Below are positions 40,903-45,015 of a DNA stretch of 45,015 bases, piece after piece. Positions within the stretch are counted from its first letter, which is position 1, and every line of letters begins with the position of its first letter. The position numbers and the translations under genes are program-made. The DNA is from a virus: positions 1 to 45,015 of the IMG/VR virus record IMGVR_UViG_3300042504_002006. One strand, written 5' to 3'. Below the pieces are notes generated by a model, which searched no databases, was not told the origin of the DNA, and saw only the letters and a list, made by a program, of their open reading frames with translations.

Positions 40903-41148
40903 TTAGTGGGTTCCATGAGGCTTTGCTCCTACTTCCAAAGTCATGGGATCAAGGTCCGCGTACGCAGAAGCCACGCCATCGAGCAGGGTCTGCAAAGGCA
41001 TGCCAGCACCCTTGGCAATCACCGCCACGACCAAGATCGAAGCGAACAAGGCCTCAGTGGGCTGCTCGAATTCGGTAGAGCAGATGTTGATCAGACGCTT
41101 GGCATCATCAATGATATTGTCAGGAATCTGACAAGGTTTGTCGCTCAT
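40903..41148 (-). CDS. First gene of the long leftward operon (81 aa)
   Basis: ATG 41148 is preceded by AGAAAGGATAG, the leader shared with genes at 42,972 and 43,843. The middle is hydrophobic (ALFASILVVAVIAKGAGMPL, residues 33-52), perhaps a buried helix rather than a membrane segment. Function unknown. It heads a chain of sixteen small leftward genes. Confidence 0.6.
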   Translation of the reverse strand: MSDKPCQIPDNIIDDAKRLINICSTEFEQPTEALFASILVVAVIAKGAGMPLQTLLDGVASAYADLDPMTLEVGAKPHGTH

Positions 41149-41205
41149 GTGTAACTATCCTTTCTGGGTTGTGAATGAGATACGGAGATTAGTCTAGCTT
41201 ACATG

Positions 41206-41234
41206 GGTGTAGGCGTGTTAGGGAAAGTTGAGAA
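41206..41234 (-). promoter_or_regulatory. Leftward promoter of the small-gene operon
   Basis: Minus strand: TTCTCA (41234-41229), 17-nt spacer, TACACC (41211-41206). Each hexamer is a 3-4 of 6 match, but the -35 equals that of the leftward promoter at 29,600. It lies 58 nt before ATG 41148. Confidence 0.45.
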
Positions 41235-41321
41235 AAACATAGGTGTTTTCCCTAGGTGGGAGGAGGCTATATAACGGATCATGGACCACGGACCGGGGTC
41301 TTATGCTTTTTTTGAAATGTA

Positions 41322-41530
41322 TATAGGACTTTTAGGGGTCGAGTGTGTTTTTATTTTTTTTTTTGTGGATTTAGACGTAATAGACGTAATGGCGTAAGAA
41401 TGCAGTGTTTATGCGGGTTGTAGGACCTTTCGGAGCATTACGGGGGGAGATTCAGTGGAATATTTCTGGGGGGCTCCGCGCGACACTTTCAAAAAAAATA
41501 AAATCGTTGTTACCCCCTAAAAGTCCTATA
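41322..41530. repeat. 17-bp perfect inverted repeat, 175 nt apart
   Basis: Left arm 41322-41338 (starts TATAGGACTT) is the exact reverse complement of right arm 41514-41530 (ends AGTCCTATA). Inside the arms, a T-rich tract (TTTTATTTTTTT, about 41350-41364) faces an A-rich tract (41491-41504), so the pairing can extend imperfectly. A transcript through here could fold into a long stem. Confidence 0.85.
41372..41397 (+). repeat. Short tandem repeats (iteron-like)
   Basis: TAGACGTAA occurs twice in direct tandem (41372-41380, 41381-41389), followed by the partial copy TGGCGTAA (41390-41397). They lie inside the inverted repeat, just after an 11-nt T tract. Small tandem sites of this type can be protein-binding sites at origins or operators. 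Confidence 0.55.
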
Positions 41531-41544
41531 GGAAACCTCTTGAA

Positions 41545-41573
41545 TTGACTTGGGCTTGGAACCTGTTTACACT
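41545..41573 (+). promoter_or_regulatory. Rightward promoter of the terminase operon
   Basis: TTGACT (41545-41550), 17-nt spacer, TACACT (41568-41573), followed by CGGAGGAT and GTG 41600. It starts 14 nt after the right arm of the inverted repeat. The -10 is identical to those at 29,577 and 37,269. Confidence 0.7.
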
Positions 41574-41599
41574 TGGCAGCAGTTTTTCGGAGGATAGCT

Positions 41600-41815
41600 G
41601 TGTTACGAATTGAGCAGGGAATCGAGTTGCCCGTGGCCAGAACCAAGTATCCGTTCGCTGACATGCAGCCGGGGGACAGCATTCGATTCACATCCAAGGA
41701 GCAGGCCAACTCTGCACGGGTGGCCTCGATCCGGTTTGTGAAGGTCCACCAGCCCGACTGGTCTTTTGTCCTGCGCAAGGTCGAAGGCGGGTGGCGGCTG
41801 TGGAGGAAGGCCTGA
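41600..41815 (+). CDS. DUF7303-like small protein, copy 2 (71 aa)
   Basis: GTG 41600 is chosen because CGGAGGAT lies 5 nt upstream; an ATG at 41573 would fall on the promoter -10. Core: IEQGIELP, YPFADMQPGDS (residues 17-27) and VLRKVEGGWRLWR at the end. It is related to the 65-aa leftward protein at 39,385. The stop overlaps the terminase ATG (TGATG). A small basic, possibly nucleic-acid-binding protein; real function unknown. Confidence 0.65.
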   Translation: MLRIEQGIELPVARTKYPFADMQPGDSIRFTSKEQANSARVASIRFVKVHQPDWSFVLRKVEGGWRLWRKA

Positions 41816-42492
41816 TGCCCAAGAAGGATGTCTGGAATGTTGCCCCGGTAACGCCGGACAAGGCCCGTACCCGGATGTCCCGGGAAGTGGCCCCGTTGCG
41901 CAAGCAGCGGCGGACCATGAACTCTAAGCAGTGGAAGTTTGTCACTGAGCTTGTGAGCGGGGACGGCCGGGTCACCATGAAGGAAGCTGCCATCCGGGCG
42001 GGGTACAACGAAAAGTCGGCTTCTGTCATGGCCTGGAAGCTGACGAATCCGGAAGAGTACCCGCATGTGGTCGCTGCGATTCAAGAGTACCGGGCGCAGC
42101 TGAACTCAAAGTACAACACCTCGTACGAGCGGCACATGCGAGACTTGCAGTTGATTCGGGACAAGGCGCTCGAGGCCGGAGCTTATGCGGCGGCCGTTCA
42201 GGCAGAATACCGCCGAGGGCAGGCCTTGGGCACAATCTACGTCGACCGCAAGGAAATCCGGCACGGTACTATTGACTCCATGTCGAAGGAAGAAGTGCAG
42301 CGCAAGCTGGACGAACTGCGCAAGCTGTACGGCGGGCCGCCCCCGTCCGCCCTGATCGACGCCAGCACGGGAGCAGTGATTGAAAGTGCAGAACGAGATA
42401 GGGACCCGGCTTTTGTCGCTCCGGTGGCAGAACCTCCCCCCGACATTTTTGAGCGGGACAACTCGAAAGGCCCGGAAGATGACCGCCCCTGA
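41815..42492 (+). CDS. terS: Terminase small subunit (225 aa)
   Basis: The DNA-recognition subunit of the packaging motor. Residues 36-80 hold NSKQWKFVTELVSGDGRVT followed by a helix-turn-helix (MKEAAIRAGYNEKSASVMAW, 55-74), the signature of small terminases. A central coiled segment (residues 92-150) fits the oligomerisation domain, and the C-terminus is acidic and Pro-rich. ATG 41815 has GGAGGAAGG upstream. The large subunit is not in the window and should lie to the right. It overlaps the nuclease gene by 14 nt. Confidence 0.8.
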   Translation: MPKKDVWNVAPVTPDKARTRMSREVAPLRKQRRTMNSKQWKFVTELVSGDGRVTMKEAAIRAGYNEKSASVMAWKLTNPEEYPHVVAAIQEYRAQLNSKYNTSYERHMRDLQLIRDKALEAGAYAAAVQAEYRRGQALGTIYVDRKEIRHGTIDSMSKEEVQRKLDELRKLYGGPPPSALIDASTGAVIESAERDRDPAFVAPVAEPPPDIFERDNSKGPEDDRP

Positions 42493-42892
42493 AGCCGCCT
42501 TTGCAACTCGGGTCCGAGAGGGCTTGCTGCCCTTAGGTGTGGACATCGAGCGAATCGAAAACCGGGTAAACCTCGGGATATCCGATTGTCTTATGGGCAT
42601 TGGTTCCGGCTTTGTCTCGGTCGAGCTCAAAGTGGTCGCCCGGGGCTTGAAGGTATCGCTACGGCCCCATCAAATTGCCTTTTTGACCCGGCATGCCTTA
42701 AAGGGCCGCCCTTGCTTTGTCCTGGTTTTTTACAAGGGCTCGCTGCTGCGGCCGCCCCGAATCTACCTCTACCATGGGCGCGATGCGGTCGCCCTTGCTG
42801 AGCACGGCCTGAAGCTTCCGCCCCTGTTTGACTGGCCAAGCCGGGGCATGCCATGGCCGGAACTGGTGCAGGCCCTGGGGGAAACCGGTTAG
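42479..42892 (+). CDS. PD-(D/E)XK endonuclease, Hjc/VRR-NUC-like (137 aa)
   Basis: Small nuclease with ENRVNLGISD (Asp36), SVELK (Glu49-x-Lys51) and LRPHQIAFL (Gln65), the active-site order of the PD-(D/E)XK superfamily and close in layout to VRR-NUC or Holliday-junction-resolvase-like phage enzymes. It may cut branched DNA before packaging or degrade DNA; substrate unknown. ATG 42479 lies inside the terminase gene behind CCGGAAG. The following 79-nt gap holds a promoter. Confidence 0.75.
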   Translation: MTAPEAAFATRVREGLLPLGVDIERIENRVNLGISDCLMGIGSGFVSVELKVVARGLKVSLRPHQIAFLTRHALKGRPCFVLVFYKGSLLRPPRIYLYHGRDAVALAEHGLKLPPLFDWPSRGMPWPELVQALGETG

Positions 42893-42904
42893 GGTTTTCA
42901 CCTA

Positions 42905-44949: not shown

Positions 44950-45015
44950 CCGGGGGCCATGGGCCCCGGGCCGTGGCCCGGGAAACCCGGTCCGGCGGCA
45001 GCCGGACCGGGTTTC
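44950..45015 (+). terminator. GC-rich palindromes and terminator-like stem at the window edge
   Basis: CCGGGG/CCCCGG (44950-44955, 44964-44969) and CCGGGCC/GGCCCGG (44966-44972, 44975-44981) are followed by a perfect 15-bp stem (44982-44996 with 45001-45015) and a GGCA loop. The stem starts GAAACCC and ends GGGTTTC, the form of an intrinsic terminator, but the window stops before any T tract can be judged. Confidence 0.5.

Follow-up and report, generated by a model that had tools for sequence, protein, structure and literature searches.

A conserved, single-copy DNA site with usually matched inverted arms upstream of terS in a freshwater phage clade

The window analyzed here, meaning the whole 45,015-bp stretch of viral DNA, contains a gene-free gap in front of the terminase small subunit gene (terS), and the question raised by this locus is what the set of repeats within the gap does. 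An initial annotation made from the sequence alone proposed an origin, a packaging recognition site or a long structured RNA. The gap holds a conserved, single-copy, terS-linked DNA site whose arms are usually matched and which has no RNA signature. Its most likely role, put forward tentatively, is that of a cis-acting, cos/pac-like genome packaging initiation site. This gives a widespread, mostly uncultured phage clade one defined cis-acting site at which a role in packaging or replication can be tested.

Layout of the Site

The gap itself is real, lying between a leftward ORF (40903–41148), the left neighbor of the site, and a GTG start at 41600. Within it, positions 41322–41530 form a single unit of ~210 bp between outer inverted arms, ordered as arm, T-tract, three direct repeats of ~9 bp ((G)CGTAAT), inverted copies, GC-rich core, A-tract and arm; downstream of the second arm follow a sigma70-like promoter, a 71-aa ORF and then terS. 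The features are as follows.

41322..41361, + strand: left inverted arm, perfect at 41322–41338, with an imperfect inner part that merges into the T-tract; the arms co-vary in relatives
41348..41364, + strand: T-tract TTTTTATTTTTTTTTTT, kept in most relatives
41372..41397, + strand: three direct repeats with a 9-bp period, TAGACGTAA TAGACGTAA TGGCGTAA; with the core, the most conserved block
41400..41422, + strand: spacer at the IHF position; the window has the alternative GTTTATGCGGGT, without an IHF consensus
41437..41442, - strand: inverted repeat copy ATTACG; the second, more upstream inverted copy of relatives is degenerate in the window
41466..41484, + strand: GC-rich core CTGGGGGGCTCCGCGCGAC; CAGGGGRGNTCCGCGAGATG or ACGGGGTGCGCGCGC in relatives
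41491..41503, + strand: A-tract facing the T-tract
41514..41530, - strand: right inverted arm, with a CTATAGG tip next to it
41545..41573, + strand: sigma70-like promoter TTGACT-17-TACACT for the terS-led genes, from a promoter scan; at the same place in relatives
41600..41815, + strand: gene of the 71-aa "YPF" protein, with a GTG start and GGAGG upstream
41815..42492, + strand: terS (PHROG 51, E 4e-12), overlapping the stop codon of the 71-aa ORF

The elements singled out in the initial annotation are present. The sequence TATAGGACTTTTAGGGG at 41322–41338 has its exact reverse complement (17 bp) at 41514–41530, and the match continues inward more weakly, over 40 nt at 80%, into the facing T- and A-tracts. 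The tandem sites at 41372–41389 consist of TAGACGTAA at 41372 and again at 41381, followed by the degenerate third copy TGGCGTAA, and the box TATATAAC lies at 41268 as described.

The record is a fragment; near-complete relatives measure 60–63 kb, and several of these assembled as circles whose ends overlap by 63 or 127 bp. The last 36 bases of the window (44980–45015) are an inverted repeat, matched by relatives on the opposite strand in blastn; assembly may therefore have broken off at a hairpin, ending the record there.

Recurrence Upstream of terS

TerS relatives were taken from IMG/VR and GTDB genomes, and the site was found to recur throughout a large, mostly uncultured clade of freshwater phages (proposed "Dishuiviridae", DSL-LC04). 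With a profile grown from the site of the window, nearly every locus of the first set whose upstream sequence was long enough showed the site ahead of terS, while the divergent members DSL-LC04, L158, L155, L219 and L220 were recognized by eye together with an arm scan. This recurrence upstream of terS across the clade places the arrangement beyond chance. Relatives were also checked for missing arms and tandem sites, and the structured element of the initial annotation stands: the clade carries the site, and its arms co-vary. Among named phages, a search for similar DNA returned nothing but short chance matches, and no convincing counterpart of the site was found in the pelagiphages HTVC023P, HTVC027P and 023Pt_psg01. 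Separately, a noncoding gap of the marine Pelagibacter phage HTVC027P (MN698241.1; L103, 3897–4017) matches the Rfam Flavobacterium-1 RNA (RF02976; 90 bits, E 5e-16).

Scans free of terS bias were made with two core patterns and one iteron pattern, each used alone. In 163 of 178 contigs found this way, terS lies downstream on the same strand, 120–684 bp away; among the remaining 15, the eight inspected were chance matches inside ORFs and seven had ≤562 bp of downstream sequence. The site is single-copy in each complete genome searched. Its left neighbors are variable, the commonest nearby families on that side occurring in 44–53 of 99 loci, and in one group terS starts 12 nt past the right arm, indicating that neither the small ORF nor the promoter is obligatory. 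In metagenomic genomes, a search profile built on the site also flags terS and gives a fixed point on the map.

Given its inverted ends with TATA-like tips, the site might also be an invertible segment with terminal inverted repeats, or else a captured miniature transposon. However, the site occupies the same place in the same internal orientation in all genomes seen, with no flipped or extra copies and with conserved internal motifs, which largely refutes this reading and leaves it hardly credible.

Repeats, IHF Position and Core

Relatives usually have three direct repeats followed by a spacer, then two inverted repeats, a single direct copy and the core. The spacer of 46 of the 79 distinct elements contains WATCAANNNNTTR, a perfect copy of the IHF consensus motif, positioned exactly +35 from the first repeat, where shuffling predicts 0.03 sites per segment. 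A marine MAG contig (L220) has the same layout with GTAAC-type repeats. Another contig (L452, 1–170) shows GCGCAAT in place of CGTAAT in a similar three-copy layout, a variant that may help to trace the binding protein through co-variation.

The repeats stay CGTAAT-like while the predicted recognition helix of TerS varies widely (SASVMAWKLTN, AKNRARELTD, RANQNGHDLTN and NAQAQANKLTN), making a base-by-base reading of the repeats by TerS unlikely.

Fast-Changing but Matched Arms

The arms of DSL-LC04 (TATAGGATACACTCTCT...) and of G009/L158 (TATAGAGTGAAAACATAAAATGAAAATATT) are wholly different, although these phages share conserved flanks (as far as the tip), a conserved core and much of the middle, and their TerS, TerL, primase, helicase and PolA are 93–98% identical. 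Across 36 non-redundant elements, arms match within a genome better than shuffled partners do (sum 1071 vs 715 ± 37; 0 of 5000 permutations), with relatedness only partly corrected in this comparison. Unrelated arm types recur in separate groups, including perfect pairs of 27 bp and 22 bp; exceptions with poorly matching arms are L024, L032, L023, L027, L017, L034 and L202. At least two arm types were found swapped between the left and right side, as would be expected if the phages recombine within the conserved middle. Fast-changing, self-matching arms constitute a natural experiment, indicating that something acts on both arms together and largely independently of sequence.

Two explanations of the arms were set aside. 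Reading by TerS or TerL is unlikely, as these proteins are 93% and 96% identical, respectively, between DSL-LC04 and G009, whose arms are unrelated. One arm type resembles TAATACGACTCACTATAGGG by eye, suggesting T7-type divergent promoters; the arms, however, occur at this locus only, and no phage RNA polymerase gene was found among the large proteins scanned in the 45,015-bp window, which is part of the genome.

Co-varying arms able to pair over 17–40 bp could instead close the terminal helix of a long structured non-coding RNA; such an RNA was among the readings of the initial annotation. This proposal fared poorly: there is no Rfam match, RNAalifold returned 0 consensus pairs in 29 relatives (where gapped arms may be misaligned), and the folding energy is near that of shuffled sequence (z −1.3). 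Mismatched arm pairs also persist in some phages, and G-U pairing does not clearly favor either strand among the arm mismatches (55:41). With neither a G-U preference nor a consensus structure, the constraint on the arms looks to be at the DNA level, and a structured RNA is very improbable.

At the DNA level, the site could be a genome-start site at which DNA processing rewrites each flanking arm from the other, through fold-back copying where an end has been cut or opened, though we regard this as rather unlikely. Rewriting of this kind would let the arm sequence drift freely while the match is kept, and would represent a distinct form of genome-end processing or replication start in a common freshwater phage clade.

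Neighboring Genes and Transcription

Of the 72 loci examined, 64 have YPF family members between the site and terS, often as tandem duplicates. An AlphaFold2 model of the protein is confident (mean pLDDT 92) and has a beta-alpha-beta-beta fold; its PDB matches are weak, several being LAGLIDADG half-domains with E about 1–2, and its matches among viral structures are mostly unnamed phage proteins, with a single weak one annotated with a DnaA C-terminal domain. Variation of the site tracks the YPF protein more closely than TerS (partial r 0.41–0.52 vs 0.13–0.14), a lead only, as YPF is also physically nearest to the site. The YPF protein is a candidate partner of the site. A second YPF copy matching window positions 41600–41815 was seen on the minus strand of a near-identical contig (L004:2598–2792). 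Five contigs (L015, L021, L028, L044 and L052) have an extra YPF-type ORF that starts very near the tip of the right arm, which would place the start of its message within or close to the site.

Left of the site in the window lies the dyad TAGGTGTTTTCCCTA (41240–41254), whose partner TAGGGTTTTCACCTA is found at 42890–42904; both are intergenic and are the sole two copies in the window, and relatives repeatedly carry variants, CATAGGGGTTTACCCTA among them, to the left of the site. The pair is an operator candidate.

Of the two divergent promoters claimed earlier, the rightward one (41545–41573) recurs at the same place in relatives, although its detection in the window scan equals chance expectation (1 found, 0.9 expected), whereas the leftward one was not found by the scan. 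The site could be a transcription control region only, with divergent promoters and repeated operators separating a leftward gene block from a rightward one, and its location between divergent modules, the rightward promoter and the separate dyad all fit this description. The GC-rich core and the co-varying arms would be left unexplained, however, and the site persists where terS starts so close to the right arm that there is no room for that promoter; control of transcription alone is consequently unlikely.

Packaging or Replication

Of the functions first proposed for the gap, origin and packaging site both survive, and the strict linkage to terS favors packaging. Packaging is also favored by the cosB-like order of the repeats, and the linkage holds even in the group with the shortest distance to terS and despite variable left neighbors. 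The fixed IHF position in many relatives, the single copy per complete genome searched and the HNH gene of DSL-LC04, placed as in HK97, lend further support. In a possible sequence of events, a phage DNA-binding protein, TerS and/or the adjacent YPF protein, would fill the repeats; a bend, made by IHF in many relatives, would join the direct and inverted repeats; and the large terminase would then be loaded onto the concatemer, on or close to the GC-rich core. Folding back of the intervening strand may keep the arms matched, or the two arms may be copied or processed jointly while the DNA is cut or in single-stranded form; this step is the least certain.

Several observations count against packaging, namely the variable TerS helix, the missing IHF consensus in the window, where no HNH gene was found beside the site either, and a difference in GC3 skew across the site in 8/8 genomes, and genome synteny alone could hold the site beside terS. 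Contig ends are scattered over the site without a pile-up at one nucleotide; the small clusters of ends seen within the left arm and immediately to the left of the core lack significance, and full-length contigs are circular or end elsewhere than at the site.

The main rival is a replication origin, in which an initiator would occupy the iteron-like repeats, IHF would bend the DNA, the A/T tracts would melt and the arms would form stems in the opened strands. The 9-bp period of the repeats, the A/T tracts and the IHF position all suit this function, as does the constancy of the repeats although TerS changes, with primase, helicase and PolA well conserved; the YPF structure match annotated with a DnaA C-terminal domain points weakly the same way. 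In all eight genomes, + strand genes to the left of the site show a lower third-position G-C (GC3) skew than genes to its right, but the skew falls again further right without a clean replichore pattern, and gene content confounds it, as the left and right gene sets differ in function. No initiator gene was found among the neighbors scanned (terS, YPF and unknown small ORFs), and an origin would not need to stay at terS in every genome. We consider an origin possible but doubtful, and retain packaging initiation as the preferred reading. Both roles could apply at once, since a late replication start can lie next to a packaging site, as suggested for ICP1 (PMC7145576).

Comparison with Known Systems

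Some iteron-type replication origins use IHF. Short direct repeats and A/T-rich tracts are shared between the site and the iteron-type origins of plasmids and the PLE satellite (PMC7145576), from which it differs in having no initiator gene found beside it and in being always tied to terS. DNA bends matter in packaging sites, and the pac site of SPP1 (pacL-pacC-pacR) offers a likeness in its intrinsically bent DNA, which is wrapped by SPP1 TerS; unlike the site, SPP1 pac as described has no iteron array or matched inverted arms (PMC4856287).

The cos site of HK97, whose TerS reads an A/T tract by shape (PMC11331095), is comparable in having such a tract nearby. DSL-LC04 also shares its HNH–site–terS order, with the HNH gene directly left of the site and in the opposite direction. 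Unlike in HK97, no HNH gene was found beside the site in the window, and there is no sequence similarity.

Membership among lambda-type cos sites is not claimed because the predicted TerS helix varies and the repeats do not follow it. The outer co-varying inverted arms and the GC-rich core next to terS also set the site apart, and to our knowledge neither has a lambda counterpart. In size and position the site nevertheless resembles the lambda-type cos of lambda, 21 and N15 (cosQ-cosN-cosB), at ~200 bp and just upstream of terS (PMC4669245, PMC4856287). The likeness extends at the clade level to repeated sites in both orientations around an IHF bend (PMC4669245, PMC4856287) and to the order of direct repeats, IHF position, inverted repeats, direct copy and terS, which recalls lambda cosB, with R2 in the opposite orientation to R3 and R1 and an IHF site between R3 and R2 (PMC4669245).
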